Positions 1 through 23,985 of a DNA stretch of 37,375 nucleotides are shown here, piece after piece. The stretch is from an uncultured Lachnospiraceae bacterium. Its GTDB lineage: Bacteria > Bacillota > Clostridia > Lachnospirales > Lachnospiraceae. The position numbers and the translations under genes are program-made. The number at the start of each line of letters is the position of its first letter. Position 1 is the first letter of the stretch. The notes beneath the pieces were generated by a model. That model searched no databases and had not been told where the DNA came from. It worked only from the letters and a program-made list of their open reading frames with translations. The DNA is taken from NCBI GenBank assembly GCA_905236705.1, contig CAJOOZ010000111.1, positions 1 to 37,375 of the forward strand, given 5' to 3'.

Positions 1-426
1 GCGCAGCTGGAACCGGTTCTGGATATATACAATGAGTATGTACAGACCAAAGCGGATAATGATTATCTGAATGCTGTATATGCGCAGACCCAGAATAACA
101 ATGCGCAGTTGAAGGAGACCATAGAAGAGCTGGAAGAGAAGATGCCCAGCAATATCGAAGTGAATACACTTGCCGTAACACCCGAGACGCTGGCGCTGAC
201 ATTCAGAGTCAAGACCAAGGAAGAAGTGGCAATGGCCATCATGCAGTTGAGGACCTTCAGGAGCTTCTCCAATGTGGCGGTTGCATCTCTTAATGAAGTG
301 CATGATGAAGAGAGCGGAGATGTATATGTTGAGTCGCAGGCTCTCTGCACTTATGGTATAAATCCTTGGCTGGAACCTGAAGAGGGCGAGCAGGAAGCAC
401 CTGCGGAAGAAGCGGCAGCTGAGTGA
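1..426 (+). CDS. PilN-like pilus assembly protein (C-terminal part, 5' end outside window)
   Basis: An open frame runs from base 1 to the TGA at 424-426, leaving 141 residues of a protein that begins upstream. What remains is a Gln/Glu/Asn-rich helix of about 50 residues, probably coiled coil, then a small domain with alternating strands and a helix (from 'MPSNIEVNTLAV' onward), and an acidic Glu/Ala/Pro tail. This is the layout of the periplasm-facing part of PilN/GspL-type proteins, which pair with PilO/GspM to link the inner-membrane platform to the pilus. The N-terminal membrane segment is not visible. The call rests on fold pattern and on the next gene being PilO-like. The stop overlaps the run-up to the next gene, so the two are probably translationally coupled. 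A generic alignment-subcomplex protein is the fallback call. Confidence 0.6.
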   Translation, partial: AQLEPVLDIYNEYVQTKADNDYLNAVYAQTQNNNAQLKETIEELEEKMPSNIEVNTLAVTPETLALTFRVKTKEEVAMAIMQLRTFRSFSNVAVASLNEVHDEESGDVYVESQALCTYGINPWLEPEEGEQEAPAEEAAAE

Positions 427-440
427 GGGAGGACGGAAAG

Positions 441-1259
441 ATGAATAAAAACAGTGTAGGAATTTTATTGGCAGTACTTGGAATCGGAGCGGCTGTCGTG
501 GGATATTTCGTAATCTTCCAGAATTTCACCGACAAAAAGGATCAGCTGGCGACGGCGAATGCATCATTGCAGACTGAGGTGGATCATCTGCAGGATCTGG
601 CAGATCACAAGCAGGAATATCTGGACGAGACAGCCAACATGAAGGCACAGGATGATGAGATTATTGCACAGTTCCCTGTAGAAGTCAGGACTGAAGATGA
701 GATCATGTATCTGAGAAACAGTGAAAATGCTTTCGGGGTTTATGTGAGTGCGATTTCGATGCCTGAAGCAAACGTGGTTGAGGTCGCAAGACCCGAGCCC
801 GAAGTGGCAGAGGCAGGCGACAATGGAACTGAGGAAGCGGCTGAAGCGACGGAAGACGGAGAGGTTGTCGAGGATACCGCTGAGGAAGCGGCTCCCGCAG
901 CACCCCAGATCCTGCTGTATCAGACTCCCGTATCCTGCAATCTGGATACATCTTATGCGTCCATAAAGGATATGATTCATGCCATTGTTTCCGATGTAGA
1001 TAACAAAAAGTCCTTTGAAAATCTGGCACTTAATTTTGATTCACAGACCGGTGCTTTGACAGGCTCTATGAGCTACAGTATGTATTCCCTGACCGGTACG
1101 GACAAATCTTATGTTGAGCCTTCTGTACCCGGTGTAGCGATCGGTACAAACGATATCTTTAATACGACACAGAGAAGTATCGAGCTCGCAGCCCAGAAAC
1201 AGGCGGCTGCGGCAGCAGCGGCAGCCAATGCGGCGGCAGAGGCAAACGAAGGGCAGTAA
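441..1259 (+). CDS. PilO-like pilus assembly protein
   Basis: This is a 272-residue bitopic protein with a short cytoplasmic start, one hydrophobic segment (about residues 5-28) and a helical, probably coiled-coil stretch (about 30-75). A strand-rich domain follows, interrupted by a very acidic Glu/Ala/Pro insert (about 110-150). The tail is an alanine-rich helix with a run of eight Ala. That order matches PilO/GspM-type alignment proteins, which partner PilN. I chose ATG 441 over an in-frame GTG at 423 because GGAGGA at 428-433 sits 7 bases upstream of it, and because the GTG would add charged residues before the membrane segment. The acidic insert and Ala tail are not typical of Gram-negative PilO, so the family call is by architecture and context rather than a recognised motif. 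Confidence 0.6.
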   Translation: MNKNSVGILLAVLGIGAAVVGYFVIFQNFTDKKDQLATANASLQTEVDHLQDLADHKQEYLDETANMKAQDDEIIAQFPVEVRTEDEIMYLRNSENAFGVYVSAISMPEANVVEVARPEPEVAEAGDNGTEEAAEATEDGEVVEDTAEEAAPAAPQILLYQTPVSCNLDTSYASIKDMIHAIVSDVDNKKSFENLALNFDSQTGALTGSMSYSMYSLTGTDKSYVEPSVPGVAIGTNDIFNTTQRSIELAAQKQAAAAAAAANAAAEANEGQ

Positions 1260-1283: not shown

Positions 1284-1310
1284 GGGCAAGGACCTTGCGG
1301 GTTTTTGCCC
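1284..1310 (+). other. overlapping inverted repeats, possible attenuator
   Basis: In the 84-base gap between the PilO-like gene and the first pilin gene, GCAAG (1286-1290) can pair with CTTGC (1294-1298), followed by GGG and five T. The outer GGGCAA (1284-1289) can instead pair with TTGCCC (1305-1310). The two hairpins are mutually exclusive. This could be a weak terminator or attenuator that lowers pilin expression, or simply a processing site. The stem is short, so confidence is low. Confidence 0.25.
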
Positions 1311-1343
1311 ATGATTGGTTATTTCAGACAAGAGGATGACTCC

Positions 1344-2777
1344 ATGAAGAAAATGCGCAAAGGAAAAAAGAATAAAGGTTTTACATTGGTGGAGCTGATC
1401 ATTGCAGCTGCGATCATGGCGATTATCGTGGCTCCGCTTCTGGGCAATTTTGTTCAGTCGGCCAAGATCAACCAGAAGGCTCGTGAGAATCTGAACGGTA
1501 TGAATATGGCGCAGGATTTCATGGAAGGAATTGCTTCATATACCGGAGATGAAGTTATCAATATGTTTGAGAGCGGAGCTTCGCTGTCCGGGACGATCCT
1601 TCCGGCTACTACGGCATACAGCTCTCATGGAGATATTGATGCTGCGGGCAATGTTTCTTTTGAGTCAGCCGGCGGCACTGCTACCGGTACACCCGTGTAC
1701 TCACAGGAGAGAACCTATGATGCGACCAATCATATATCCCGCACACCTGTTGCAGCTGATGAATATCATTTTTTTGTAAAAGGCGTGCAGATGGGTGGAC
1801 ATACATACGATTATGATGTCAAATTGAAATCCATCATCAAAAATAAAAAGGCGCAGGCATCAACGATCGATAAGACTTATGATGCTGTTTATTCCGCCCC
1901 TGAGGCATTTCAGGAATCCATTAATGACCCTATTAAGGGGTTCGTCAGGAATGGTGCATCGCCGACGGATCTGACGGGGCGTGTAAAACGCCGCATTACT
2001 GTTCGCATCAAGGTAGAGGATCATGCTGACGCCGATCCGGACAATGATGAATATCCGGTCACGGTGACGGATGAGTTTGTGGCCGAAGGCGTTGCGGGGC
2101 TTTCAGGTACGGGTAGCATCTATCAGGTTACAGATGAAACCAATATTTTTGCAAATGCGGCAGCAAAACAACCTGAGAGCGTATATATCTATTATCCCGC
2201 ATCCATTGAGGGAACGGCCAGTGTTGCCAGTGAAGAGTTTTGGATTGAGAATAAGACCAATAATGATGTGAACGTATTTCTGATCAGACAAAAGAACATA
2301 ACTCCAGTATACAACTCTGTAGGCAGTGCGAGTGTGTATGTGAGTGATGAGGGAAGTGACGGTAAGCTGCATACCTATCTGATTACCAATGCCAGATTCG
2401 ATTTAAACCATAATTTCAGTGAGAACCTGAGAACCAAAAATGAGAGCGGTCAGTCAAATGATGATGAATATCTGGCGGACATGTATGGTATTACCTATAA
2501 TGTGACCGAAGGTAAGTATGAGTGGCCGTCAACATCCTTTTATGATAAGAGCAAATGCGAATTTAAATACAGGCGGGGGACTGGACTGGCCGATGGAGCG
2601 GGATATCAGATCATTCAGGATACTGCAAACGGTGTCGTTCCGGCATATAATGACATCATTTCGGATGGGATCATGAAGAGAGATTCGGCTGCAGCTTTTG
2701 ATGTGGAGATTATTGTAAATGATGTCTCGAGGGGCAACAAAAAAGTGGCGTCTTACGAAGGGGCTTTATCCAATTGA
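1344..2777 (+). CDS. large type IV prepilin-like protein (GspI/PilV-like)
   Basis: This 477-residue protein has a class III (prepilin) signal. A 12-residue basic leader ends in Lys-Gly, followed by Phe-Thr-Leu-Val-Glu-Leu, which puts the conserved Glu at mature position 5 (E17). A hydrophobic helix runs to about residue 35. A prepilin peptidase would cut after G12. The helix continuing after the membrane part ('ENLNGMNMAQDF') resembles GspI/PilV. The remaining roughly 400 residues are a strand-rich extracellular region of no family I recognise, two to three times longer than usual for a minor pilin. ATG 1344 is preferred over the in-frame TTG at 1305 because AGAGG at 1331-1335 lies 8 bases upstream and it gives a normal prepilin leader. 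It is probably an initiating or tip pilin of the pilus. Confidence 0.75.
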   Translation: MKKMRKGKKNKGFTLVELIIAAAIMAIIVAPLLGNFVQSAKINQKARENLNGMNMAQDFMEGIASYTGDEVINMFESGASLSGTILPATTAYSSHGDIDAAGNVSFESAGGTATGTPVYSQERTYDATNHISRTPVAADEYHFFVKGVQMGGHTYDYDVKLKSIIKNKKAQASTIDKTYDAVYSAPEAFQESINDPIKGFVRNGASPTDLTGRVKRRITVRIKVEDHADADPDNDEYPVTVTDEFVAEGVAGLSGTGSIYQVTDETNIFANAAAKQPESVYIYYPASIEGTASVASEEFWIENKTNNDVNVFLIRQKNITPVYNSVGSASVYVSDEGSDGKLHTYLITNARFDLNHNFSENLRTKNESGQSNDDEYLADMYGITYNVTEGKYEWPSTSFYDKSKCEFKYRRGTGLADGAGYQIIQDTANGVVPAYNDIISDGIMKRDSAAAFDVEIIVNDVSRGNKKVASYEGALSN

Positions 2778-2824
2778 CCTGGGCAATATACAAGGTTTTA
2801 TTGAGTGAGAAAGGATGTAAACGG

Positions 2825-5485
2825 ATGATGACAGGACTAATGAAGCGGATCAATCAGCGGCGCAAAAAAGGAAATTCCGGTGCTGCGCTTATTATGGTTA
2901 TCATTGTGACGGCGTTTGTCGGAATGCTGGTTGCCATGGTTGTGTATATGGCTTACGGCAACTATCTGATGAAATATAATGATAAGATGGGCAAGGACAA
3001 TTTCTATTCCGCTGAACGTGTTCTGAGCATCATCAACGGACATCTTCAGGAAGAGTCTTCCAAATCCATGATGAATGCTTATTCCAATGCGCTTCAGACT
3101 GCCAATAATGCCGGCTCTACGCAGCTTGCCAATTATCAGTCAGGTTACATTGATGCGATCTATGACGAATTGCGGGATGCTGCGGATGCAGGTCACTGGA
3201 ATAAGAGCCTGCTGAGGGGATATGCGTCCGCCGAGAGTGTTCCCCTGGCCGCCACTCCGGGGGCATACGGAGCCTACATTGATGTCAGAGCAGGCGGAGA
3301 GAATCTGCTTGTAAAAGAGGATCAGAAGTCCGTTACTTTAAAGGATCTCCGCATTGTTTATACGGATGACCAGGGATATGTCTCCATAATCGAGACCGAT
3401 ATCGTAATGGTAACACCGGATATCTCCTTTGCGGCTGAGTCCAAATCTCTGCCTATTTCCGATTTCTCGCTTGTTGCGAATGAGAATCTTTATATTGATA
3501 CAGGTAAGGGCGGAACAGACAATGTCAAGATCAGTGGTGATGTCTACGCCGGTATGGAGGGCTTGAAGGTAGGAAATTCCACTACGGCTTCCTTCGAATC
3601 CGCGGATCCGACAGATGCGAGTCTGTCTTATAAACTGATCGCCAAAAACATTGATGTATCCAATTCCATCGCTGCGAATGAACTGAAGGTTGATACTCCT
3701 TATGAAACCTTTGTAAACAATATAAATCTTGATGCCGGTCATGCAACCCTGGGCGGCGTTATGAATGTGGGAGATGATCTGGAGATTTCGGGAGAGAGGT
3801 CCTCCGTCAAGCTCAAGGGCAGGTACATCGGTTACGGTGACAGCAACAGCTCATCCGACGTCAGCAGTTCGATTCTGATCAACGGTGCCGATACCAAATT
3901 GGATTTCTCGGAACTGGAAAAGCTGGTGATCTCGGGTTATGCTTTTGTGGGCGCCACCAAATATGATGCCAACTCTACCAGATACAATGCTGTATATGGA
4001 GCAAATGCATCGGATGATGATGACAAGATCGAGGATGTGGACGCTTACAATCAGACACTTGAAGAAAAGGGGACCAAGATCCCGCAGATCGATCCCGTGA
4101 CGGGTGAGTTGTTGCCGGGAGAGACGAATACGGGCAATCTGGATACAACTGTTTCGAATACTTCTAATCCCATGATGGGTGAGTCCATGGCATCCAAGGC
4201 GGAGCAGATGATCTATATGGTACCCGCAGAATGTATCGGTTATCTGAATGATCCTGCCACCATGTCAAGCGCTAACGGCGTTACGGTTCCCACCGTGCAG
4301 GTGCTCGGCAAGAATCCCATGACCGCCGCTGAATATGAGATGCTGACCAGGGATCTCAAGCAGGGCTACGGATGGGATGACTACAATACGATCGCAGCCC
4401 AGGTGCAGGCCGACACTACCATTGCGGCAGGAGACAAGGAGCGGGAGATCAGGGAGCGCAGGGCTGCCTGGGTGAAGGCCAACAGACAGTATATCCCCGT
4501 GGATCTGAATATCCTGACCAGCAAGATGCCCAATCTGCCGGCCAATTTTTTGAGCAATGAGTCCTACAAGGCTGTATACAGGAGAGTAAACGGTTCCGTG
4601 CTGGTATATCTGTATATTGATTTCGGTTCCGATGTCAGTCGTGCCAATACTTTCTACAGGGCATATTATGATTATGATTCAAAGTCATTGGAGAATTATA
4701 TCTCCTCTTATGTGGACAAGAACAACTTCAAGTGGAATGCAAACTGGAAGAGTAATCACGCAGTTAACGCGTTAGGCAAAAAGGTTGATTATAAAACTGC
4801 AGCGGCCAATCCGGATGTTGAGTCACTGCTGACGAACAGTAATATGTTCTTCTATGACAACCGCAGGAATCTGTCCCTGATGGAGGATACGGCTACGGGT
4901 ACAGACGCTTCCGCAACCATCGCTTCGGAGATGTACAATTACAGAGCGTCCAATACCAGAAGCTTCAATGGTCTTCTTTATCTGCTGGATGCATCCAAGG
5001 TGCCCAGTCAGGCGCAGAAGGAGAAGACGCTTTTTGAAAATCTGATCGATGAGAGCAAGCTGCCGACCGCTGAAGCTCCGAAAAGGCTGTATAATCAGAA
5101 GGTCGGAGGCGCTGCGGCCGGAGCAACTGATCCCATAGGAGTAGTGAAATACGGAGATTATACTTATCCCACTGAGGATGGTGATCAAATAAAGGTTATC
5201 GTTTCAACAAAGGATATCTATATAACGCAGGATTTTAACGGTCTTGCACTGGCCAAGGGAAATATTTATGTGTCTGCGGGCTGCAGCAAGATCAATGCTG
5301 ATAAGGCCAATGTGGACACGGTACTGAAACAAAAGACGGTAGCCGATGCTGTTAATGAGATGAAGGTTATCTTTTACGGTGCTGAGGTCGGTGATGATGC
5401 AGAGATCGACAACACGCGTGAGAGTGACGAAAATAAAGTAGTATTAAGTGATTACATTAATTATGAGAATTGGGTAAAGGAATAA
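2825..5485 (+). CDS. very large GspK/PilX-like pilin without +5 Glu
   Basis: This is an 886-residue protein with a basic leader (KRINQRRKKGNSG), a likely cleavage after G19, then Ala-Ala-Leu-Ile-Met and a long hydrophobic helix. Mature position 5 is Met (M24), not Glu, which is the hallmark of GspK/PilX proteins that cap the pseudopilus tip. Residues about 234-375 and about 797-815 contain short alternating strands with 'KISGDVYAG', 'LGGVMNVGDDLEISG' and 'LALAKGNIYVS'. This looks like a parallel beta-helix or bactofilin-type repeat (inference). GspK proteins are usually near 300 residues, so this one is nearly threefold longer. ATG 2825 has AAAGGA at 2810-2815, and the upstream in-frame TTG at 2774 is unlikely. 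The gene lies 47 bases after the previous pilin, in the same operon. Confidence 0.65.
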   Translation: MMTGLMKRINQRRKKGNSGAALIMVIIVTAFVGMLVAMVVYMAYGNYLMKYNDKMGKDNFYSAERVLSIINGHLQEESSKSMMNAYSNALQTANNAGSTQLANYQSGYIDAIYDELRDAADAGHWNKSLLRGYASAESVPLAATPGAYGAYIDVRAGGENLLVKEDQKSVTLKDLRIVYTDDQGYVSIIETDIVMVTPDISFAAESKSLPISDFSLVANENLYIDTGKGGTDNVKISGDVYAGMEGLKVGNSTTASFESADPTDASLSYKLIAKNIDVSNSIAANELKVDTPYETFVNNINLDAGHATLGGVMNVGDDLEISGERSSVKLKGRYIGYGDSNSSSDVSSSILINGADTKLDFSELEKLVISGYAFVGATKYDANSTRYNAVYGANASDDDDKIEDVDAYNQTLEEKGTKIPQIDPVTGELLPGETNTGNLDTTVSNTSNPMMGESMASKAEQMIYMVPAECIGYLNDPATMSSANGVTVPTVQVLGKNPMTAAEYEMLTRDLKQGYGWDDYNTIAAQVQADTTIAAGDKEREIRERRAAWVKANRQYIPVDLNILTSKMPNLPANFLSNESYKAVYRRVNGSVLVYLYIDFGSDVSRANTFYRAYYDYDSKSLENYISSYVDKNNFKWNANWKSNHAVNALGKKVDYKTAAANPDVESLLTNSNMFFYDNRRNLSLMEDTATGTDASATIASEMYNYRASNTRSFNGLLYLLDASKVPSQAQKEKTLFENLIDESKLPTAEAPKRLYNQKVGGAAAGATDPIGVVKYGDYTYPTEDGDQIKVIVSTKDIYITQDFNGLALAKGNIYVSAGCSKINADKANVDTVLKQKTVADAVNEMKVIFYGAEVGDDAEIDNTRESDENKVVLSDYINYENWVKE

Positions 5486-5498
5486 GCGGGGTATGACG

Positions 5499-6017
5499 AT
5501 GACAGAGGGAAAGAACCATAACAGAAAAAACGGCGGATATACGTTGGTCGAGTTGGTCGTGGTCATAGCGATCCTATCCGTACTGATCGGTCTCATCGGT
5601 TATAATATATCGGTGGTATGGTCCTTTAATGCCCGCGAGTGTTCCAAGAAGATTACAACGGACATTCAGTCCCTGAAGGTGACCACACTCTCCAAATCTG
5701 CGACTTTTGGCGATACCTATATGAAGGTGTACTATGACGGGAAAAATGTTATGCGCAAGTTCCACTACAAGGATGGTTCGGAAGAAGAGGAACAGATCGG
5801 CAAGAGAGTGAAGGTGTACTATGGAGATGGCACGGCTCTGACCGAGATAGGTACTGAAGGGGGCGGCGAGCTTACGATCACCTTCGACAGATCCTCGGGG
5901 GCGATCAAGGACAGTTCCGGAGCAGTTTCGGGCGTGAAGAAGATCGTGGTTGAGAGTGGTAAAACCTATACGATTGATGTGACGCCGCAGACCGGCAAGG
6001 TGAATCAGAAGTTGTAA
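5499..6017 (+). CDS. GspH/FimT-like minor prepilin
   Basis: This 172-residue prepilin has a leader ending in Gly-Gly (G12-G13), then Tyr-Thr-Leu-Val-Glu, placing Glu at mature position 5 (E18), followed by a Val/Ile-rich membrane helix. The C-terminal half has the GspH/FimT pattern: a strand 'ELTITFDRSSGAI', a Gly-containing turn, then 'TYTIDVTPQTGKV' at the end. Its length is normal for the family, unlike its neighbours. ATG 5499 is preferred over ATG 5493 because GCGGGG at 5486-5491 is 7 bases from 5499 but only 1 base from 5493. In known systems the GspH/FimU-type pilin connects the tip complex to the major pilin fibre. Confidence 0.75.
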   Translation: MTEGKNHNRKNGGYTLVELVVVIAILSVLIGLIGYNISVVWSFNARECSKKITTDIQSLKVTTLSKSATFGDTYMKVYYDGKNVMRKFHYKDGSEEEEQIGKRVKVYYGDGTALTEIGTEGGGELTITFDRSSGAIKDSSGAVSGVKKIVVESGKTYTIDVTPQTGKVNQKL

Positions 6018-6071
6018 TGGTAATATTAGTTGCGAGATTAAGGGATATGCGTTTACGGGAGGATATGTAGT

Positions 6072-8720
6072 ATGAAGAGAAGGAATGGCGGATTTACAAT
6101 CATGGAACTGATTGTAGCGATCGGTATTTTGGGATCGCTTACTGTCATGACGGCCGGACTGATGGATACTTCATCCGGTACATACCGCAACATCGGAACG
6201 GAGTCACAGCTTCAGTCCGAGGCACAGCTTGTTGCAAACGCGATCTCCGAGGTGATCATTGACGGAAAGAAGGTCGCCAAATTTACGGATACGGCGACTG
6301 TGGTTGACGGGGCAGGTTCTTTTGATAACTCCAATGCAGGCAATAACGGTGTCGGCGCTTTCATTCCGGTTTGGATCGATGACAATACGATCCGTATCAT
6401 TGCCAGAGATACGGCCAAGGACGAGGTTTATATGTTTGACTGTCCGGCAGTGGAAGATGCGGATGGAAATGTAAACGTGACGGCTCCTACCGAGGTTTCC
6501 CTGCTTGGTCAGCATGTTACGGCTTTCTCTGTGAATCTTGCCAGAGCAGCAGGTCCCAGGATCATTGATTATTCCATGACCTATGAAAAGGGTGGTAAGA
6601 GCTACAAGGGTGATTACCAGATCTTTATGCGAAACGGCGGCTCTGCTGCGACGGTTTCCGCAAATGAGGCGGTGGATGAGGCCAAGCTGATCAATGCTAC
6701 TGTATCCCCCAAGATCGTTTATATTGATGTTTATGATAAGAAACTGAAGGGAACCTATTATAAGGAAAGTCTTTTGACTGCTCCTTCCACTTTTGTAGGG
6801 GATCCTTCGATCGATCTGACAGCGACTGTATTACAGCAGGGCTTCGGTATTGCCGGTGATATGCTGCATGAATATAACTTGAACTGGTCATTGGGAGGCG
6901 GTGCGCCTGCAGCAGTGACCATGACCGGTGACAACACTGCTGCTATGAAGCTGCAATTTGATAATACTACCTTTGACTATTCCAATGATCTTACCGCATA
7001 CCAGTTCCAGGTGGATTTTGAAGCGGAGGGTATCACCAAGGAAGCAGGCACTGATGCAGCCGGCAATCCTGTATATACAACGACTGATACACAGGTCAAA
7101 TCGGATTATACGACGATTTATTTCCGTCTCTGCCGCAAGGTTGATGTCACTCCTGTGGTCAGCGCCAACATCAGTGAATGGGACGAGGCAAGATTTGTCG
7201 GTAGCGGTATGTATGCCAGTGGCGCAAGCAAGGTCAATGGGATCAATTATTATGCAAGACCCGACTCCACGATCACCATTACAGGTGTGTGCGACAGTCC
7301 GAATGTAGCGACCGACCAGCCTACCTGGAAGCTTGAGTACAGGCTGAGGACTGAGACGGATGCGGCTTACAGGGCTGTTCCCGCTTCCGTTGCCAGATTG
7401 GCGAATGCTGCAACGGCTGCCAATACCAATAGCATAAGGATCGGTTCATCAGCGACCAATGATATGGTATTCCGCGTTACTTGTACCTCTACTTTTGACG
7501 ACACGATATCAGGTAAATATGAGTTTGGTATCCAGCCTTCGATGAATGCCGGCGATACCGGCGGATTTTTCAGCCGTGGATATTATACCGATATGAATCA
7601 GCTGTTCAAGGATAACTGGACGCAGTACACGAGTCCTGACGGTCATGAGCTTTTCAAAACCCAGGGTGGAAATCCGCAGATTGATAGTCTGGTATACCTG
7701 AAATGCGAGGGGATCTACGGCAAGCTTTCCGGTCATGGTACTCCGGATATGGTCAAGATCACCTATGACACGGACGGAACGCCGCGGATGTATATCGATT
7801 ACCAGGCATTCCAGTTCAGCGGACAGGACAAGAATGATTTTTATAAATGGGGCTGTCAGCTCAAGTTCTATTATGGATACAAGGACACGTCAGGTAATTA
7901 TTATCTGAATACGACTGATTCGACCATCGTTGCCGATATGCGCTCGCATCTGCCTTCCGATAACCGGAGTGCAGCGATCGGTGTGGCCGACGGCGAATGT
8001 GTCTATAATCTGGGCGGTGTTTCCGTTTCCAAGATCACACCTGCAAGCGGATTTATACTCCTGAACAAAGGTGAGACTCAGAATGTGGGCATCAAGACGA
8101 ACTATTACAACATTATGCGTCCCGACGGCGGTAATTATTACCTGGGTGCATATCTGGGCGATATGACTACCAACGACAAGAGCAACAACCTGATCCAGCC
8201 CGGCAAGGGTGAGACTGATGCGTATTGTACGGTTGAAATGATCAGTGACTATGGTGATGTCAATAAATATGTTGAAAATGCCTATATCAGTCTGGGAGCC
8301 AAGAATACAAATGCGCAAAAGAATTTCCTGACAAAGCCCATGACACTCAGACTGACGGCCAATGATTTCTATACCATCAGTATGAGCGAGGAGGCTTCCT
8401 GGTCGGATTACACGCTGCTGATCTCCAATCTGATGGGCAGCGACGAGAAGACGACAGATGCGGAGGTATATTTCCCCGTACCGGATTATGACGCAGCGGG
8501 GAATTCGGCCTCATTCAGCGTGAATGGTGTAAATATGCAGTTCCCCAAAAAGAATAATGTATCGACCAATCCCGCAGGGGGAACCGAAATAACAGGAATA
8601 AACAAGAGCGGTACATCCATAAAGGGTAAATGCTATTATAACGGCAACCGCCTGTATCTGGAGTACAACGCCAAGAAATATGTATATGATTCTGTTTACA
8701 AGTGCTGGAAGCGCGCATGA
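6072..8720 (+). CDS. very large type IV prepilin-like protein (GspJ/PilW-like)
   Basis: This 882-residue protein has the shortest leader of the set, seven residues ending in Gly-Gly, then Phe-Thr-Ile-Met-Glu with Glu at mature position 5 (E12), and a hydrophobic helix. The stretch after it ('TESQLQSEAQLVANAIS') resembles the GspJ/PilW alpha-helical spine. The remaining roughly 800 residues are rich in Asp, Thr, Tyr and Gly, with predicted beta character and no family I can name; they look like several extracellular beta domains. GspJ/PilW proteins are usually 200-300 residues, so this is a strong enlargement. GGGAGGA at 6057-6063 lies 8 bases from ATG 6072. A tip or adhesive role is inferred from the operon. 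Confidence 0.7.
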   Translation: MKRRNGGFTIMELIVAIGILGSLTVMTAGLMDTSSGTYRNIGTESQLQSEAQLVANAISEVIIDGKKVAKFTDTATVVDGAGSFDNSNAGNNGVGAFIPVWIDDNTIRIIARDTAKDEVYMFDCPAVEDADGNVNVTAPTEVSLLGQHVTAFSVNLARAAGPRIIDYSMTYEKGGKSYKGDYQIFMRNGGSAATVSANEAVDEAKLINATVSPKIVYIDVYDKKLKGTYYKESLLTAPSTFVGDPSIDLTATVLQQGFGIAGDMLHEYNLNWSLGGGAPAAVTMTGDNTAAMKLQFDNTTFDYSNDLTAYQFQVDFEAEGITKEAGTDAAGNPVYTTTDTQVKSDYTTIYFRLCRKVDVTPVVSANISEWDEARFVGSGMYASGASKVNGINYYARPDSTITITGVCDSPNVATDQPTWKLEYRLRTETDAAYRAVPASVARLANAATAANTNSIRIGSSATNDMVFRVTCTSTFDDTISGKYEFGIQPSMNAGDTGGFFSRGYYTDMNQLFKDNWTQYTSPDGHELFKTQGGNPQIDSLVYLKCEGIYGKLSGHGTPDMVKITYDTDGTPRMYIDYQAFQFSGQDKNDFYKWGCQLKFYYGYKDTSGNYYLNTTDSTIVADMRSHLPSDNRSAAIGVADGECVYNLGGVSVSKITPASGFILLNKGETQNVGIKTNYYNIMRPDGGNYYLGAYLGDMTTNDKSNNLIQPGKGETDAYCTVEMISDYGDVNKYVENAYISLGAKNTNAQKNFLTKPMTLRLTANDFYTISMSEEASWSDYTLLISNLMGSDEKTTDAEVYFPVPDYDAAGNSASFSVNGVNMQFPKKNNVSTNPAGGTEITGINKSGTSIKGKCYYNGNRLYLEYNAKKYVYDSVYKCWKRA

Positions 8721-8742
8721 TCGTCTGAAGGAGTGAACAAAG

Positions 8743-11700
8743 ATGAAAAAAAACAAGACGCTGAAAAGAATACTGATGGGAACGCTTGGATTTGCACTTG
8801 CGGTCATTGTATTCTTCACGAGTACCATGCAGGGAGTCAGGGAAGTAGAGGCGGCCAGCACCAAGGTGTTTGACCTGATCACTTCCAAATACGGCGCCAA
8901 TGGCAGTGAGCTCAAGATCCTGGAGGTAATTCCGGATCAGGCTACCGTGGCTTATCCTGCGGGAGGACCGCTTGGTCCGCCTGCAAGCGCTACCGGCGGC
9001 AAGTTCAATTATGCTAATAATATCAGTCCCAGGGCTGAGATGGGTTATTTCCTCTGGAGAGGTGAAAATTGGAGGGACGGAGCATGGCAGAATGATAATA
9101 ATGCACCGCTTTTGCTGAATCCATCCATGTCTACCTGGGGTACCGGTCTGAATGTGGATGAGCCTCATAATGACAAGACTACGGAATATTCTGGACTGAT
9201 GTACAATATGTATCAGTACGGTATGATCAAGCAGGTGGGACAGGATACGGGTCATGAGTTCCCGATCTATGGATCTACTACGGGCAACACACCTGTTTCC
9301 GTATATGAGAGCTATTCGGCAGCCGGTTATACCGCTTATGATGGCACTGATGCGGTCGTCAGGGGTGTTTATTCCAACCAGCCGGGAGAATACGATTTTG
9401 CCGACAAGGAGGCATCGAACGGAGATACGGTAGATGCGGACGGCAATGTGACAAACAGTGACGGTTTGGTATTCAAATATGGTGGCTATGCGATTGACGA
9501 TGCCACCGGCGATATTTATTTTACAGAGAGTTACAGTCTGGGAGCAGACTCTGTCAGTGAGAATTCCACAGTCAGCGCTAACAGTGCAGAAAGGCCTGAA
9601 GGACTCAGGAGAGGCGCTAACAGAACGGACGCCTATGGAACATATAAGATGGATGAGGACACCTATCCCGAGACAATAACGGGTGACAGTGTGGTATTCC
9701 GTTTCAATCTTGTTCCGGATAATACCTCCAAGCTGGAGATCCCGGGTATGCTGACCTTCCGTGGCAAAGGAAATACGGACGGCAAAGTGAAGTTTACCAG
9801 AACAGAGACGGCTACGTCGGAGAAGACGCAGTATCTGGGCTATTCCGAAAGAAGTCTGTTCTTTAACACTTCGGAGAATGTCAGATTCTACAGCAGTGAC
9901 CAGTTCAGACAATATGTACTGGGTGATACGGAGAAATATCATGACAAGGTGCTGATGTATGAGACCGTTGCCTCCGGTGACCTGACCGCCAAGATGGTAG
10001 AGGATTCGGATCTGATCTATATTTCCGGTAAGGCGGAAGAGTTTAACAATATGGATATCTCTACCGAGGCTATGATCGCCCTGTACGATAAAGAGGTAAA
10101 TGATCACAAGGCGGTTATGATGGATTATGCCTGCTATTCTCCATCGCTGGATTCCAACGTATCCTGTCTGGCGCTTCTGCTCTGGCAGCAGTCCCAGAGT
10201 GCGGTTCAGCAGGAATATGACAGTCTGTTTGAGATCGATGAGAATCTGGGAACGGGCAAGCTGAAGGAGCAGAACGGAGCAGTCTTTGATTTTGGAAGCA
10301 ATGCGATCACAAAGGGTCTGAAAGAGTCTATGATGACCGGCGCAAACGGTAACTTTGTGGTTGGTAATGTATATGTATATAATCATCATGTCAATGACTT
10401 TACCAATCCCAAGTCCCTGGTGGATGCCGGTGACAACTTTGCCAACGGTGATTTTTCCAGTGCATACAAATCCGAGGTGGAATCGGCAGGCTTCCAGGAT
10501 GTAAAGAATTATATTGCGTCCACCAACAAGGCTTCAACGACATCCGGACAGATGGCAACGTCAGTGACACCTGCCGTGGCGATCCAGTACATTTTGATCA
10601 ATACCGGTGAGCTGACGGTTATGAAGCAGGAACTCAGGATATTGGAGATCGAACCTGTAGTGAGCTTTCTGTACAATGAGTATGCAGGGTCGGAAGAGTA
10701 TGGCTATCTGCCGAACAAGTATCAGAAGAACAGAAGGGACTTTATCGAGAATTATCTTTCCGATTATTACAAGGACAAGACGGAATATATCCAGTTCGTA
10801 TCCAAGACTGTTGATGAATTCAACGGAAGTAATGAGGATTTGATCGAGAGCTACGATATCATCTTTATCGGCAGCGAGATGGGTACTCTGTACTTTACCG
10901 GAGATGGTAATACTATAGATGCTCGTGATACGAATCCGTCCAGGAAATGGGATGATACCAACGGTTATGATCTCACGCAGACACAGAAAATTGAACTGTC
11001 GATCTTCAGGGCGGATACTAAAATGGCTGGTATTTCCGATATAAATTATCGTATGACCGGTAATGTATATTATACCCAGGGCGATACATTTGAACACGAT
11101 GATGAAAGATTGTGGGGTACAAGGGATTATCTGGTAAATAATACGAATGATAATCGACGTGCCAAGCGATTTACCTCCAGGGATATTACCCGTAACAAGC
11201 TGACCAAGCTGAAGGAATATCTGGATGCGGAGAATCTCATCATCTGTGAAAAGGATCTGATGAGTCAGGTGGGGGATTCGGGAGAAGAACAGATCAATCC
11301 TTCCTGTATTTATCTGGATGATAATGCGCCGCTCAGGATAGCCAATACGGATAAGAAGCTTGAGGATTGCGGCAGGATCGATAACTCCAGCAATATGTAT
11401 GAGCTCTTCAAGTATTCCCAGGGATATGAGTTCTGCATGGACGTGACAAGTGCCGACTACGGTAAATATATTGGCATCACCGATGGTATGGGTTCCAGCA
11501 GGGAGGATAACATCAAGCCGAATCTGGTCAGTGCGGGCGATCTGCTGACAGGCAAGACCGCCAAGACCGTTGCGGAAAAATATGTTGCCACTGACAAGAT
11601 ATCCCTGACCATGAACAAGATTCCCATGGAGTATGGCTATGATACCTATGCTGCCACACAGAATCGAGACGGTAATGGAGCCGGTGAAACGCATTTCAGG

Positions 11701-13995
11701 GGTACACTGGTTGCGGACAGTATCAAATATCTGGAAAAGGATTCCGACAATAACAGGGAACTGGTTTATGATTTTGTGATCAATTCCAATTCAACGGTTT
11801 CGGATACATATACGCCTTACCTGTTTGTGGATATCAACAATGACGGTAAGTTCTCCAAAGAAACGGAGATGATCACGGATGCCCAGGTATTTGTCAAGGC
11901 GACGGGAGCCGAGGCGGACATGGATATCACGGGCGATCACTATGTGCTGTACAGAGATGTGGAATATGAATTAAAACGTCCCGTTGATAAGGATTATTAT
12001 GGCTTTATCAAATGGAAGCTGTATCTGAGTTCTCTTTCCGATTCCAAGATCCATGCATCTGTCGATGGCAGCACTGTTGCAGAAAACCTCGGAGATACGG
12101 TTGATCTGAAGATTCTGCAGCTGAACCATAATGGAGCCTCTACGCTGAATCTTCAAAATGAACTGGAGCGGCGGAACGGTACCGGGGATAACAGAACGTT
12201 TATGCGTTATCTGAGCGAGATTCCGGGATATAATCTGTATATCCGGACTATAACGGTACAGGAGTTTGAAAATGATTTTAATGCAAAGTATACTGCAGCC
12301 TACAATGCGGCTCCGGCAGGTGCCAAGCCTACGGTAGAGCAGTATTCCGAGACATATTTCGATGAATATGAGTTTACCAGAACGATCAACGGTGCTACAT
12401 CCACCAAACAGGGCTGTGATATGCTGGTGCTGGGCTTCGGTGATGATTATGCCAACTTTGCGACTGACAATGCGATGAATGCTGTCAGAAGGTTTATCGA
12501 AAACGGAAATCCGACCCTGATGACCCATGACTTTATCATGTTTGACGGTAATTACAAGCAGGTTGGCTATCTGCGTGATCTGGTAGGTATGGACAAATAT
12601 GGTAATTCCACATTGGTAACGGACGGTGGTGTGACCTATAACTACAAGACAAACGCCGGCGATCCGAATCTGCACGATTACTTAAGGTCAGGCCTGCAGT
12701 ATACCAGAGACGATCAAAAGAATGTATTTGCAGCGATAGAGAGCACCGGCAGACAGGTGGCATACGAACCGGGTACGCTGAGAAGCAGGACCAGCCGGTA
12801 TACCTATGGATTTACGGATGCAACCTTCTTCCGCTATAAATGGGGTGATTGGTTTAATACTCACAGATGGCATGCATGGCTGAACACGCCGAAGGTATAT
12901 ATTGCTCAGGGTCAAGGTCAGGAGGGATATCAGAACGAATATTATGTAGATCAGCTTAACAGCGGTCAGATCACGGATTATCCTTATCACATCAGCAGCA
13001 GATATCGGGTAGCTAATACCCACTTCCAGTATTTCGAACTGAATCTGGATGCGGATGATGATAATGACGGTGAGTCCGATGTGGTAGTATGGTACACGCT
13101 GGGTGATGTGGCCAATACGGACAGGCACAACATCTTCGGTAAAGATGGTGATTATAAGCATGCTTCTACCGCTTATTACATTTATAACAAGGGTAACGTT
13201 ACCTATACCGGTGCAGGACATTCGGGTCTGGAGCAAACAACGGATGAAGAGGCGATGCTGTTTGTAAATTCCCTGTTTGCAGCCCTGCAGAGCAAGCTGG
13301 TTGCACCTTCCGCAGGTTTCTATGAAACCCCTGTGATCACCGCATCGCCGATCTCTTCTCTGGCGGTACCTTATGACGGTAATGTGACCGCAGGTACGAA
13401 TCCGGATTCCAGTATCATCAAGGGAACCGATGGTGAATACAAGTATAAATTTGTTGATCCGAACGCAAATGCGGGACAGGTCGCAAACGGTACCAAGATG
13501 TTCTTCAGGATGTCAGATGCCAACTTTGTACGTGGTACCAAGAGTATGGAAGCGCGTATGTATATTGCCGTACCCGGCATGAAGGTTGGAGACAACTTCA
13601 CATTGACAAACGGCGCATCGAGACCTGTGGTACAGGTGAATGTTAACGGGGAGTCGGTTCCCTGCGTAGAGGCGACGGATCTGATCAATGTGTATAATGT
13701 CAACAACGGTGAATTTGGTTCACAGATCGGTCTGTTGAATCGTACCGTGACGGATGCCACCGGGCGCTCCGATACATTCAAGGTTCTCACAGGCTTGAAG
13801 TCCCAGGTTACCTACGGCTTCTATCTGCCGATGGCATACTTAAAAGACAAAGCAAGCTTCAGCATCATTTTGGAGTCTTCCTCCATGCTGACCGCCAAAT
13901 CGGCTATCACCGGTGCTGACACCACGACGACCATGACTGATTCAGGCTTTAATGCTCTGACAGTAACCAAGGCTGACCTGCTGGATCTGGATTGA
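8743..13995 (+). CDS. giant secreted protein of pilus operon, possibly DUF5057-type, PilY1-position
   Basis: This 1750-residue protein has a Sec signal peptide (basic MKKNKTLKR, a hydrophobic core, then a VEA-type cleavage site near residue 37) and no LPxTG or C-terminal membrane anchor. Three regions begin with a similar strand: 'ELKILEVIP' (residue 56), 'ELRILEIEP' (630) and 'DLKILQLNH' (1121). Each is followed later by a second strand: 'SDLIYISGK' (422), 'YDIIFIGSE' (704) and 'CDMLVLGFG' (1225). This suggests three diverged Rossmann/GATase1-like modules. Near 1030 is an EF-hand-like loop 'DINNDGKFSKETE', and at 1438-1446 a DxDxDGxxD loop. 'YTGAGHSG' followed by 'LFVNSLFAAL' is typical of large clostridial proteins I remember as DUF5057, but I could not check this. 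AAGGAG at 8728-8733 precedes the ATG. As the last operon gene after the minor pilins, it may be tip-associated. Confidence 0.6.
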   Translation: MKKNKTLKRILMGTLGFALAVIVFFTSTMQGVREVEAASTKVFDLITSKYGANGSELKILEVIPDQATVAYPAGGPLGPPASATGGKFNYANNISPRAEMGYFLWRGENWRDGAWQNDNNAPLLLNPSMSTWGTGLNVDEPHNDKTTEYSGLMYNMYQYGMIKQVGQDTGHEFPIYGSTTGNTPVSVYESYSAAGYTAYDGTDAVVRGVYSNQPGEYDFADKEASNGDTVDADGNVTNSDGLVFKYGGYAIDDATGDIYFTESYSLGADSVSENSTVSANSAERPEGLRRGANRTDAYGTYKMDEDTYPETITGDSVVFRFNLVPDNTSKLEIPGMLTFRGKGNTDGKVKFTRTETATSEKTQYLGYSERSLFFNTSENVRFYSSDQFRQYVLGDTEKYHDKVLMYETVASGDLTAKMVEDSDLIYISGKAEEFNNMDISTEAMIALYDKEVNDHKAVMMDYACYSPSLDSNVSCLALLLWQQSQSAVQQEYDSLFEIDENLGTGKLKEQNGAVFDFGSNAITKGLKESMMTGANGNFVVGNVYVYNHHVNDFTNPKSLVDAGDNFANGDFSSAYKSEVESAGFQDVKNYIASTNKASTTSGQMATSVTPAVAIQYILINTGELTVMKQELRILEIEPVVSFLYNEYAGSEEYGYLPNKYQKNRRDFIENYLSDYYKDKTEYIQFVSKTVDEFNGSNEDLIESYDIIFIGSEMGTLYFTGDGNTIDARDTNPSRKWDDTNGYDLTQTQKIELSIFRADTKMAGISDINYRMTGNVYYTQGDTFEHDDERLWGTRDYLVNNTNDNRRAKRFTSRDITRNKLTKLKEYLDAENLIICEKDLMSQVGDSGEEQINPSCIYLDDNAPLRIANTDKKLEDCGRIDNSSNMYELFKYSQGYEFCMDVTSADYGKYIGITDGMGSSREDNIKPNLVSAGDLLTGKTAKTVAEKYVATDKISLTMNKIPMEYGYDTYAATQNRDGNGAGETHFRGTLVADSIKYLEKDSDNNRELVYDFVINSNSTVSDTYTPYLFVDINNDGKFSKETEMITDAQVFVKATGAEADMDITGDHYVLYRDVEYELKRPVDKDYYGFIKWKLYLSSLSDSKIHASVDGSTVAENLGDTVDLKILQLNHNGASTLNLQNELERRNGTGDNRTFMRYLSEIPGYNLYIRTITVQEFENDFNAKYTAAYNAAPAGAKPTVEQYSETYFDEYEFTRTINGATSTKQGCDMLVLGFGDDYANFATDNAMNAVRRFIENGNPTLMTHDFIMFDGNYKQVGYLRDLVGMDKYGNSTLVTDGGVTYNYKTNAGDPNLHDYLRSGLQYTRDDQKNVFAAIESTGRQVAYEPGTLRSRTSRYTYGFTDATFFRYKWGDWFNTHRWHAWLNTPKVYIAQGQGQEGYQNEYYVDQLNSGQITDYPYHISSRYRVANTHFQYFELNLDADDDNDGESDVVVWYTLGDVANTDRHNIFGKDGDYKHASTAYYIYNKGNVTYTGAGHSGLEQTTDEEAMLFVNSLFAALQSKLVAPSAGFYETPVITASPISSLAVPYDGNVTAGTNPDSSIIKGTDGEYKYKFVDPNANAGQVANGTKMFFRMSDANFVRGTKSMEARMYIAVPGMKVGDNFTLTNGASRPVVQVNVNGESVPCVEATDLINVYNVNNGEFGSQIGLLNRTVTDATGRSDTFKVLTGLKSQVTYGFYLPMAYLKDKASFSIILESSSMLTAKSAITGADTTTTMTDSGFNALTVTKADLLDLD

Positions 13996-14032
13996 TCCTG
14001 CGGATACAGGCAGTAGAGGAATAGTAATCAGA

Positions 14033-14071
14033 GAACCGTGTAAAGAAAAAACTTTACACGGTTCTTTTTTT
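14033..14071 (+). terminator. Rho-independent terminator of the pilin operon
   Basis: A perfect 13-bp stem, GAACCGTGTAAAG (14033-14045) with CTTTACACGGTTC (14052-14064), has a six-A loop and is followed by a run of T to 14071. It lies 37 bases after the stop of the 1750-residue gene and marks the end of the pilus operon. Confidence 0.9.
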
Positions 14072-14081
14072 GGTGTATAGT
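14053..14081 (+). promoter_or_regulatory. candidate sigma-A promoter for topA
   Basis: TTTACA (14053-14058) and TATAGT (14076-14081) each match the sigma-A consensus at five of six bases and are 17 bases apart. The -35 lies inside the 3' arm of the preceding terminator. A start near 14088 would give a leader of about 65 bases. A separate TATAAA at 14118-14123 has no good -35 and is a weaker candidate. Confidence 0.45.
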
Positions 14082-14153
14082 CTTGTGTCGAGAGACAAAT
14101 TCATGCAGATACATATTTATAAATAAGAAGAAAGAGACAACAAGGAGCTGAAA

Positions 14154-16247
14154 ATGACTAAGAATCTGGTTATTGTGGAGTCCCCTGCAAAGGTAAATAC
14201 CATCAAAAAGTTTTTGGGCAGTAATTATGAAGTGATGGCCTCAAACGGGCACGTCAGAGATCTGCCAAAGAGCAGGATGGGCATTGATGTGGATCATGAC
14301 TTTGATTTTCAATATATTACGATCCGCGGCAAAGGTGAGCTGTTGGCGGGCCTTCGCAAGGCCGTGAAAAAGTCTGATAAAATCTATCTGGCAACCGACC
14401 CCGACCGTGAGGGGGAGGCGATTTCCTGGCATCTGGCTGCGGCTCTGAAGCTGGAGGAGCAAAATAAGCCGGTATACAGGATCACTTTTAACGAGATCAC
14501 CAAAAATGCGGTAAAAGCTTCCCTGAAGAATGCGAGAGCCATTGACATGAATCTTGTGGATGCACAGCAGGCCAGACGCGGACTGGACCGGCTGGTGGGA
14601 TATCAGATCTCGCCGGTGCTGTGGGGCAAGATCAAGAGAGGTCTGTCCGCGGGCAGAGTGCAGTCCGTGGCGCTGAGGATCATTTGCGACAGAGAAGAAG
14701 AAATAGCGGCATTCGAGCCCAGGGAGTACTGGACGCTTGATGCCCTGCTGGATGCATCTAACAAGGTGAAAGGCGCGGGGCTGAATGTGCATTTTTACGG
14801 CGATCAGAACGGCAAGATAGAGCTGACAGACAAAAAGCAGGTGGAAGCGATCGAAAAAGCCTGCAAAAATAACAGATTCACAGTGAGCGAATGTAAAAAG
14901 GGCGAGCGGATACGCAAGTCGCCGCTTCCGTTTACAACCTCTACCCTGCAGCAGGAGGCTTCCAAGGCGCTGAATTTTTCGGCGCAAAAGACCATGCGCC
15001 TGGCGCAGCAGCTCTATGAGGGAGTTCCGATCAAGGGTAGCGGAACGGTGGCGCTCATCACCTATCTGCGTACCGATTCCACCCGTGTGTCAGAGGAAGC
15101 GCAGAGATCTGCAAGGGAATTCATTACCGGGTATTACGGAGAAAACTATGCGGCTTCGTCATCCGTCGTCAAAAAAAGCAGCGGTGCCAAGGTGCAGGAT
15201 GCGCATGAAGCTATCAGACCGACGGATATCGAACGTGTGCCGAGCGATCTGAAAAACGCACTGCCCAGGGATCTGCTCAGGCTGTATCAGCTGATCTGGA
15301 AACGGTTCTGCGCCTCCCAGATGTCGGCTGCGGTCTATACGACGGTTTCGGCTGATTTTACAGTGGGAGAGTATGTCTTCAGAGCATCCGATTCCACGGT
15401 GAAATTCCCCGGTTTCATGAGCGTTTATACCGAGGCGGAGGAAGTTGCGACAGAAGACGGCAAGCCGGAGGAAAAGCCTGCCAAAGCAAAAGCGAAAACA
15501 GCTTTGAAAAAGAAATCCGATGAAAGCGGAAAGATTCTGGCGCAGCTTACCGAAACGGACAGCTTTGCGGCAGAGAGCTATGACAGTCAGCAGCATTTCA
15601 CACAGCCCCCCGCGCATTTCACGGAGGCCAGTCTGGTACGTACCCTTGAAGAGAAGGGGATCGGCAGACCCAGTACCTATGCTCCTACCATCTCTACCAT
15701 CATGGCGCGGCATTATATTACCAAGGAGCAGCGCAATCTCTATGTGACAGAGCTGGGCGAGGCGGTCAATAAGCTGATGAAGGAGGCTTTTCCTTCCATC
15801 GTGGATGTTTCCTTTACAGCCAATATGGAATCCCTCCTGGATTCGGTTGAAGCCGGCGATGTGGAATATAAGACCGTGATCAGCAATTTTTATCCGGATC
15901 TTCATGAAGCGGTGGAAAAAGCGCAGCAGGAGCTGGAGTCGGTTAAGATTGAGGATGAGGTTTCGGATGTACAGTGTGATATCTGTGGCCGGATGATGGT
16001 GATCAAGTACGGTCCTCACGGCAAGTTCCTGGCCTGTCCGGGATTTCCGGATTGCCGTAATACCAAACCGTATTTTGAAAAGATCGGCCTATTCTGTCCT
16101 TCCTGCGGCGGAGATATCGTGATCAAGCGCACCAGGAAGGGAAGGCGCTATTATGGCTGTATCAACAATCCGGAATGTGATTATATGGTGTGGCAACGGC
16201 CGACCCAGGAGTCGCTGGCTGCGCTGAAAGAGAAAAATGAAAAATAA
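14154..16247 (+). CDS. topA: DNA topoisomerase I (type IA)
   Basis: This 697-residue enzyme relaxes negative supercoils by passing one DNA strand through a transient break. The Toprim domain opens the protein ('LVIVESPAKVNTIKKFLG') and carries the metal-binding DPDREGE motif at residues 82-88. The active-site Tyr is Y304 in 'ITYLRTDSTR'. Two four-Cys zinc ribbons close the protein: C608/C611/C628/C634 and C648/C651/C669/C675. A Lys/Glu/Ala-rich low-complexity stretch (about 430-465) sits where many relatives have a shorter linker. AAGGAG at 14142-14147 lies 6 bases from the ATG. topA followed by codY and flgB is a reduced form of the order seen in Bacillus. Confidence 0.97.
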   Translation: MTKNLVIVESPAKVNTIKKFLGSNYEVMASNGHVRDLPKSRMGIDVDHDFDFQYITIRGKGELLAGLRKAVKKSDKIYLATDPDREGEAISWHLAAALKLEEQNKPVYRITFNEITKNAVKASLKNARAIDMNLVDAQQARRGLDRLVGYQISPVLWGKIKRGLSAGRVQSVALRIICDREEEIAAFEPREYWTLDALLDASNKVKGAGLNVHFYGDQNGKIELTDKKQVEAIEKACKNNRFTVSECKKGERIRKSPLPFTTSTLQQEASKALNFSAQKTMRLAQQLYEGVPIKGSGTVALITYLRTDSTRVSEEAQRSAREFITGYYGENYAASSSVVKKSSGAKVQDAHEAIRPTDIERVPSDLKNALPRDLLRLYQLIWKRFCASQMSAAVYTTVSADFTVGEYVFRASDSTVKFPGFMSVYTEAEEVATEDGKPEEKPAKAKAKTALKKKSDESGKILAQLTETDSFAAESYDSQQHFTQPPAHFTEASLVRTLEEKGIGRPSTYAPTISTIMARHYITKEQRNLYVTELGEAVNKLMKEAFPSIVDVSFTANMESLLDSVEAGDVEYKTVISNFYPDLHEAVEKAQQELESVKIEDEVSDVQCDICGRMMVIKYGPHGKFLACPGFPDCRNTKPYFEKIGLFCPSCGGDIVIKRTRKGRRYYGCINNPECDYMVWQRPTQESLAALKEKNEK

Positions 16248-16252
16248 GATAA

Positions 16253-16267
16253 AATTTTCAGAAAATT
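16253..16267 (+). promoter_or_regulatory. CodY box, exact consensus
   Basis: The 15 bases AATTTTCAGAAAATT match the published CodY consensus AATTTTCWGAAAATT at every position. The site lies 5 bases after the topA stop and about 20 bases upstream of the codY -35, so it is well placed for autoregulation by CodY. Confidence 0.85.
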
Positions 16268-16283
16268 CCGTGATTAACCCGCG

Positions 16284-16298
16284 AATTGATTGAAAATT
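16284..16298 (+). promoter_or_regulatory. degenerate second CodY box
   Basis: AATTGATTGAAAATT matches the CodY consensus at 12 of 15 positions, with mismatches at positions 5-7. It overlaps the -35 of the codY promoter, so binding there would block RNA polymerase. The centre-to-centre spacing from the exact box is 31 bases, about three helical turns. Confidence 0.55.
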
Positions 16299-16318
16299 CC
16301 AATCTGAGATGTTATACT
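16290..16318 (+). promoter_or_regulatory. sigma-A promoter for codY
   Basis: TTGAAA (16290-16295) is followed after 17 bases by TATACT (16313-16318), each five of six to consensus. Transcription would start near 16325, leaving a leader of about 67 bases that contains the hairpin at 16346-16372. Confidence 0.75.
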
Positions 16319-16345
16319 GTTTTCCAGATATCTGCATTGGGCTAA

Positions 16346-16372
16346 GGAACTGTTCGTTTTTTTAACAGTTCC
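16346..16372 (+). other. hairpin in the codY leader
   Basis: GGAACTGTT (16346-16354) pairs perfectly with AACAGTTCC (16364-16372) around a loop of CG plus seven T. The T run is in the loop, not after the stem, so it is not a normal terminator. It ends 8 bases before the GGAGG of codY and could affect leader stability or translation. Confidence 0.5.
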
Positions 16373-16391
16373 CGGAGTTTGGAGGAACGGT

Positions 16392-17192: not shown

Positions 17193-17194
17193 AG

Positions 17195-17217
17195 AAAACA
17201 CAATATATAGTGTTTTT
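17195..17217 (+). terminator. weak terminator-like hairpin after codY
   Basis: AAAACAC (17195-17201) can pair with GTGTTTT (17210-17216) around an AATATATA loop, followed by further T. The stem is AT-rich and only 7 bp, so read-through from codY into flgB is likely. It may instead be part of an operator. Confidence 0.35.
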
Positions 17218-17240: not shown

Positions 17241-17258
17241 AATTATTTTATTTATAAT
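17230..17258 (+). promoter_or_regulatory. sigma-A promoter of the flagellar operon
   Basis: TTGTGT (17230-17235) is followed after 17 bases by a perfect TATAAT (17253-17258). Transcription starting near 17265 gives a very short leader before AAAGGAGG (17274-17281) and flgB. This is the main promoter I can see for the first flagellar unit. Confidence 0.7.
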
Positions 17259-23982: not shown

Positions 23983-23985
23983 AAA

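Follow-up and report, generated by a model that had tools for sequence, protein, structure and literature searches.

A DUF5057 protein encoded behind four minor-pilin genes in Lachnospiraceae: a candidate tip component of monoderm type IVa pili

The window analysed here, a stretch of 37,375 nucleotides from an uncultured Lachnospiraceae bacterium (assembly GCA_905236705.1, contig CAJOOZ010000111.1), begins within a type IV pilus operon on the + strand. A PilM/PilN-like gene is truncated by the contig start, so that only its 3' end is present (1..425; frame 1 is open to the stop at 424-426); a PilO-like gene follows (423..1259, 278 aa). As no Pfam match exceeded the cut-off, the latter is named by position and shape only: its product has one transmembrane segment and a coiled coil, and a gene of the same position and shape is found in most loci. 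Next come four genes for minor pilins, assigned to classes by their N-terminal motif, order and size: a PilV/GspI-like gene (1305..2777, 490 aa; N_methyl E 3.2e-8; prepilin motif GFTLVELIIAAAIMA), a PilX/GspK-like gene (2774..5485; ORF of 903 aa with a conserved N-terminus and a probable ATG start near 2825), a FimU/GspH-like gene (5493..6017, 174 aa; N_methyl E 8.9e-8; motif GYTLVELVVVIAIL; class by position and size) and a PilW/GspJ-like gene (6072..8720, 882 aa with a long C-terminal part; motif GFTIMELIVAIGILG). The N_methyl match of the PilW-like protein scored 19.5 bits in hmmscan and was over the cut-off in the genome search. The set covers, in order, each of the four minor-pilin types found in the tip complex of diderms. 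The gene under study, an ORF of 1750 aa (8743..13995, +), starts 23 nt past the end of the PilW-like gene and, as the last gene of the operon, ends 35 nt upstream of an intrinsic terminator (14030..14067, +; 16-pair stem, 6-nt loop, T run; -23.0 kcal/mol). The gene order is pilM/N-pilO-pilV-like-pilX-like-fimU-like-pilW-like-DUF5057-terminator.

The N-terminus of the PilX-like protein (NSGAALIMVII...NFYSAE) is kept across loci, and two of 27 PilX-like orthologues matched PilX_N (best E 0.0021). These proteins (the product of 2774-5485 and its orthologues) far exceed PilX in size. Their C-termini share a conserved GxIxxxGDVxxxxxFxGLIIxGG block, and weak matches of two members to Bactofilin and MinC_C hint at a beta-helix.

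The upstream run reads pilB-pilT-pilC-pilA-pilD-pilM in two other genomes, in one of them on a single contig. Among the relatives, loci L239 and L241 encode PilM (TIGR01175) upstream of the pilO-like gene; PilT was over its curated cut-off there, and PilB, PilC and PilM were among the best-matching families. PilD in the operons of relatives was identified by sequence and position. The PilB proteins of L239 (7037-8749) and L241 (12095-13819) carry an MshE-type cyclic-di-GMP-binding domain, so c-di-GMP may control extension of the pilus. The assembly from which the window comes encodes PilT on contig C134, and PilB, PilC and PilD together with three more pilins on contig C21. This second pilin cluster (G000:C21, locus L083) also contains two large genes lacking a Pfam match. 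Directly past the pilus operon, the window carries topA, codY and a flagellar operon (14154-28895) with genes for two rod proteins, fliE-fliF-fliG-fliH-fliI-fliJ-fliK, flgD and a gene for a FlgE/F/G-type hook protein. As topA follows the pilus operon and the flagellar operon lies beyond it, genes for pili and flagella are neighbours; topA also stands after the pilus operon in relatives L139, L147, L150, L156 and L158.

The product of 8743-13995 belongs to Pfam family DUF5057 (PF16480; E 1.6e-58; 199.4 bits versus a curated cut-off of 27.9 bits). This was the single Pfam match, no other family being found in the protein at E ≤ 0.1, and it is limited to residues 814-1263 (11182..12531). No NCBIfam model matched. 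No function is stated for DUF5057, and none of the open papers in the library searched mentions it. Likewise, phmmer against the PDB and a profile search returned no solved structure related by sequence; the profile matches (antibody chains, a pyrophosphokinase and similar entries) had no meaning and were rejected as direct homologues.

The protein opens with basic residues, followed by a hydrophobic core and a VEA-AS site, which by a simple rule is predicted to end a Sec signal peptide near residue 38 (8743..8856). When such hydropathy and motif rules were applied to 88 homologues, a hydrophobic core was seen at the N-terminus of 84, and 81 of these also had an AxA-like site. An LPXTG-like motif was found in none of the 88, a possible additional transmembrane segment in only two, and Pfam detected no prepilin motif (PF07963) or class III signal peptide in the DUF5057 protein. 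In keeping with the preliminary description of this DNA, which had read the protein as Sec-exported and unanchored, it appears to be a non-pilin with a predicted Sec signal and without an anchor. Members of the family range from 858 to 2399 aa, a divergent relative reaching 2847 aa, and outside the conserved blocks sequences this divergent can be aligned only roughly.

The preliminary description had further proposed three diverged repeats, each opening with one strand and followed by a second ending in Gly. The first strands are ILEVIP (58-63, strand from residue 56), RILEIEP (630-636) and KILQL (1121-1125); the second ones are SDLIYISG (422-429), YDIIFIG (704-710) and CDMLVLG (1225-1231). 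All six belong to the family's most strongly conserved blocks. Similarity between units was determined by hhalign on family profiles, with column-shuffled and reversed profiles as controls. Units 2 and 3 aligned with a probability of 96.7% (E 3.2e-10, score 77), while 12 column-shuffled profiles reached at most 18.0 and the reversed one 9.2. For units 1 and 2 the probability was 86.0-91.3% at a score of 48-52, against a maximum of 14.7 for the shuffles. The match between units 1 and 3 was weak by itself (score 26.6, probability 3.5%, shuffles at most 13.1) and in the same register; their relation is mainly transitive via unit 2, as judged from these profiles. No shuffled profile approached the scores of the 2-3 and 1-2 pairs; three diverged units are indicated, and repeats arising by chance are ruled out by the shuffled and reversed controls. 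The pattern common to the units is I-L-E-I-x-P ... I-x-V-x-T-M-T-x-x-E-F ... Y-D-L-I-Y-I-G ... N-D-I-T ... L-x-x-Y-x-x-x-G-x-P-V-I.

AlphaFold2, run with 71 homologues, gave a confident model of residues 626-1750 (mean pLDDT 84.3, pTM 0.89). For residues 40-1010 the values were 72.6 and 0.60, the core of unit 1 being good and its insertion poor. The order of secondary structure is identical in all three units (strand-helix-strand-helix-strand-helix-strand), as expected if the repeats are real. Unit 1 (residues 50-628; 8890..10626), assigned by its hhalign match to unit 2, has core strands at 57-63, 404-410, 424-427 and 457-461, and is interrupted by about 290 inserted residues that differ from lineage to lineage and are modelled with low confidence. 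Unit 2 (residues 629-870; 10627..11352) has strands at 631-637, 683-689, 706-709 and 832-835. Unit 3 (residues 1115-1525; 12085..13317) is the most conserved part of the protein. The borders of the Pfam model cut through units 2 and 3. A beta-sandwich lies between these two units, and beta domains follow unit 3 (residues 1526-1745; 13318..13977), so that the C-terminal half is predicted to consist of alpha/beta units and beta-sandwiches. The first-mentioned sandwich contains a predicted calcium-binding-type loop, DxNxDGxF...E (residues 1030-1042; 11830..11868), whose positions are kept to different degrees among the 88 homologues (D1030 in 85, N1032 in 64, D1034 in 66, G1035 in 72, E1042 in 43).

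Neither the PF05567 propeller nor a VWA domain was found in the protein by Pfam, and the model shows alpha/beta units instead. Homology to PilY1 was rejected for the absence of both (Pfam, AlphaFold2): lacking the defining propeller, the protein is not a member of the PilY1 family, and the expected fold other than the VWA plus propeller of PilY1 was borne out. PF05567 was also not found in 37 carrier genomes, in a search that gave no positive-control match.

All three units have a beta-alpha order in common. The class-I glutamine amidotransferase-like (GATase1-like) fold proposed earlier for them depends on Foldseek, ThuA and 2gk3 matches below threshold. Foldseek searches of the PDB with the unit 1-2 model gave nothing significant (best E 0.59); 23 of the 50 best matches were class-I amidotransferase proteins, 14 of them amidotransferase subunits or domains (PLP synthase, GatD, gamma-glutamyl hydrolase and others) and nine whole CTP synthases, for which the aligned part was not displayed. 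The unit 2-3 model drew Ig-like and other beta-rich proteins, and the GATase-like fold was not recovered. ThuA was weakly matched by four of 57 single unit 3 sequences (best E 0.0031), peptidase S51 was also weakly matched, and the unit 3 profile reached 2gk3 at E 1.7 only. We take ThuA and 2gk3 to belong to the same fold group. Likeness to ThuA and class-I GATase-like proteins resides in the strand-helix order and in a G-N-V/I-T-Y-x-G-x-G-H block at the end of unit 3; the units differ from them in lacking the nucleophile Cys, no conserved Cys being present at the nucleophile elbow of any unit in the homologue alignment (columns 452-470, 828-846 and 1252-1270). A class-I GATase-like reading is therefore plausible, if weakly supported by sequence and model, and given sub-threshold fold matches and the missing Cys the units are probably pseudo-amidotransferase units.

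Unit 3 stands out by a near-invariant polar set (of 88 homologues, H1262 in 75, D1263 in 81, H1493 in 72, E1503 in 86 and N1509 in 86), and an enzymatic or metal-binding role of this unit is possible in view of these residues. Together with the weak ThuA, S51 and 2gk3 matches, they would also fit a surface enzyme delivered by the pilus, in which unit 3 acts as a ThuA/GATase1-like hydrolase on glycans or the cell wall with an active site formed by His1262-Asp1263, His1493 and Glu1503. We regard this explanation as improbable, because a nucleophile-elbow Cys is conserved in no unit, units 1 and 2 lack the polar set, and Foldseek searches of the PDB with the long models returned no significant, meaningful match to an enzyme.

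To determine how general the position behind minor-pilin genes is, DUF5057 loci were surveyed in partly fragmented assemblies, with prepilins called by a regular expression plus hydropathy. DUF5057 was present in 81 of 396 Lachnospiraceae genomes (20%) and in 66 of 280 genera. Outside the Lachnospiraceae, a few genomes from other families of the same class had it, as did three from one more distant family of the phylum. In the first collection, a prepilin gene on the same strand ended at most 1.5 kb upstream in 76 of 85 testable loci, and 78 of the 85 had at least two prepilin genes within 7.5 kb. Of the nine exceptions, eight had prepilin genes elsewhere in the fetched stretch and one (G031) was a broken frame. 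In the second collection, which shares species with the first, 61 of 66 testable loci had the gene directly after a prepilin gene (median gap 26 nt). Prepilin ORFs on the minus strand were absent from the 80 loci of the second set and numbered eight in the 1.69 Mb of the first. A chance neighbourhood is ruled out by the two collections and by this near-absence of pilin ORFs on the other strand. The PilY1-like position proposed for the gene, 23 nt past a prepilin gene in the window, is thus typical of the family, whose members were found beside pilin genes almost throughout and not mostly away from them.

A contig search with the single window protein gave no match, whereas a profile of the last unit gave 236; the weak matches G467, G081:C27 and G133:C46 were left out as non-members, and no homologue was found in the plasmid search. 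PilX-like orthologues were detected in 111 of 392 genomes. A PilX-like pilin was present in 80 of 81 genomes with DUF5057 versus 31 of 311 without (Fisher p 3e-56, a value that overstates the association, as the genomes are related and not independent). Locus L092 (G247) has tandem DUF5057 genes (4170-9071 and 9315-14300) behind one minor-pilin set. In the three genomes of the distant family (L136, L137 and L138; 5.6-6.8 Mb), the protein is about 1540 aa long without unit 1 and without the C-terminal tail described below, and prepilin genes lie 2-4.5 kb away on the opposite strand.

The protein ends in LLDLD (13978..13992), which corresponds to a family pattern LFxLD that is a possible docking tail. 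This pattern is found at the C-terminus of 75 of 88 homologues versus 0.6% of internal 5-mers. It is also present in most shorter relatives without a DUF5057 match, and absent outside the family Lachnospiraceae. Such a tail, kept in otherwise different proteins, could alternatively be the recognition signal of a soluble effector that is exported with the aid of the pilus and then released, as for TcpF or type II secretion (T2SS) substrates, the minor pilins recognising it without retaining it at the tip. Release would produce the same gene neighbourhood, and minor pilins of the H-I-J-K type contact secreted substrates in the T2SS (PMC10191384). In monoderms, however, there is no outer membrane for a secreted protein to traverse, and the DUF5057 protein brings a predicted Sec signal of its own; moreover, the presence of PilT in the operon speaks for a pilus that retracts, and the large size and beta-rich end suit display more than release. 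Export for release is therefore considered unlikely, though less so than the surface enzyme, and retention on the pilus is preferred.

The last-gene slot was also read in 20 genomes that have the PilX-like pilin and no DUF5057 match. One contained the 2847-aa family member, missed by Pfam. Seven encoded secreted proteins of 726-1055 aa that match unit 1 and lack the middle part, six of them matching the C-terminal end too. Three encoded large proteins that the family model did not match, one slot was cut off where its contig stops, and in the remainder, several of which have a short PilX, no family member followed the pilins. Large secreted proteins that neither match Pfam nor resemble the DUF5057 family model occupy the slot in L139 (5756-8563), L147 (6905-10360) and L150 (6852-10073; operon orientation) and are possible further tip-protein families. 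In L152, L153 and L158, a short PilX-like protein (213-250 aa) is combined with a long PilW-like protein (697-1396 aa) and no tip-protein gene is present; the long PilW-like pilin may do the job there. Since these operons have the same pilins, pili of this type do not all require a DUF5057-like protein.

Long DUF5057 members carry grafted surface modules, either a SHIRT domain or Listeria-Bacteroides repeats (List_Bact_rpt); the layout is that of a constant carrier with exchangeable modules. Such modules, and the spread of sizes from 858 to 2847 aa, are ill-suited to a portal in the cell wall, or an assembly factor, that would lead the pilus through peptidoglycan and partly replace the missing secretin. 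In favour of such a factor, outer-membrane components are absent in monoderms and passage of the pilus through the wall is unsettled (PMC6916266). Yet no peptidoglycan-binding or anchoring domain was found in the DUF5057 protein, and DUF5057 is missing from 80% of the genomes searched; of the explanations weighed here, the portal is the most remote.

Taken together, we consider the DUF5057 protein to be a secreted non-pilin component of monoderm type IVa pili that is most likely located at the tip, with a probability of roughly two in three. The analysis itself shows to which sequence family the protein belongs, its repeats and model, the make-up of the operon, co-inheritance with the PilX-like pilin and the conserved tail. 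That the protein is secreted, docks to minor pilins, sits at the tip and serves adhesion is what we infer from these, the notion of a tip adhesin deriving from operon position. According to the proposed mechanism, the protein would cross the membrane via Sec and be bound on its outer side by the four upstream-encoded minor pilins (PilV-, PilX-, FimU- and PilW-like), perhaps via its LFxLD tail. It would then cap the growing filament, being pushed out by PilB and pulled back by PilT. Unit 3, the beta domains and the tail would form the constant carrier part, while lineage-specific insertions, chiefly that of unit 1, would contact the target. Adhesion would be the likeliest purpose of a protein displayed in this way. 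A more specific proposal, that DUF5057 represents a convergent class of tip proteins with three pseudo-amidotransferase units, a beta stalk and LFxLD docking, whose exchangeable insertions set what gut Lachnospiraceae bind, has in our estimate about an even chance of being correct.

This reading gives DUF5057 a testable function and provides a named target for studying attachment of common gut commensals, the carriers including Roseburia faecis and Butyribacter intestini. About one fifth of the sampled Lachnospiraceae have a conserved non-pilin in the genetic slot of PilY1. If the assignment is true, two unrelated folds have separately come to occupy the tip slot of type IVa pili; since the fold differs from that of PilY1, the tip protein probably evolved independently.

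Among known systems, TcpF of the toxin-coregulated pilus is a non-pilin effector located at the tip and listed beside PilC (PMC10191384); it belongs to a type IVb system and resembles the DUF5057 protein by description only. Display of adhesive modules by type IV pili of a monoderm is known from Streptococcus sanguinis, in which modular pilins are used instead of PilC/PilY1 (PMC8179133, PMC6916266). Its modular minor pilins PilB and PilC are made with a class III signal peptide and bear a VWA or lectin module as a graft (PMC8179133), whereas the DUF5057 protein has no pilin part. In type IVa pili of diderms, the tip complex is formed by four minor pilins with PilC/PilY1, treated as the tip effector, as the cap (PMC10191384); additional loss of pilT is reported to restore piliation of pilC/pilY1 mutants in diderms (PMC10191384). 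Like PilC/PilY1, the DUF5057 protein is a large, putatively Sec-exported non-pilin encoded after fimU-pilV-pilW-pilX-type pilins in a type IVa system with PilT. It likewise combines a calcium-type loop with a constant part and variable modules; PilC/PilY1 as well as modular pilins are described as built from a carrier plus a module that can be exchanged (PMC8179133). It differs in having no sequence relation to PilC/PilY1, no VWA domain and no C-terminal beta-propeller; where PilC/PilY1 has the propeller, DUF5057 has three Rossmann-like units, a beta-sandwich and the LFxLD tail. The best explanation of these likenesses and differences is that the DUF5057 protein is a functional analogue of PilY1 in monoderms, and not its homologue.
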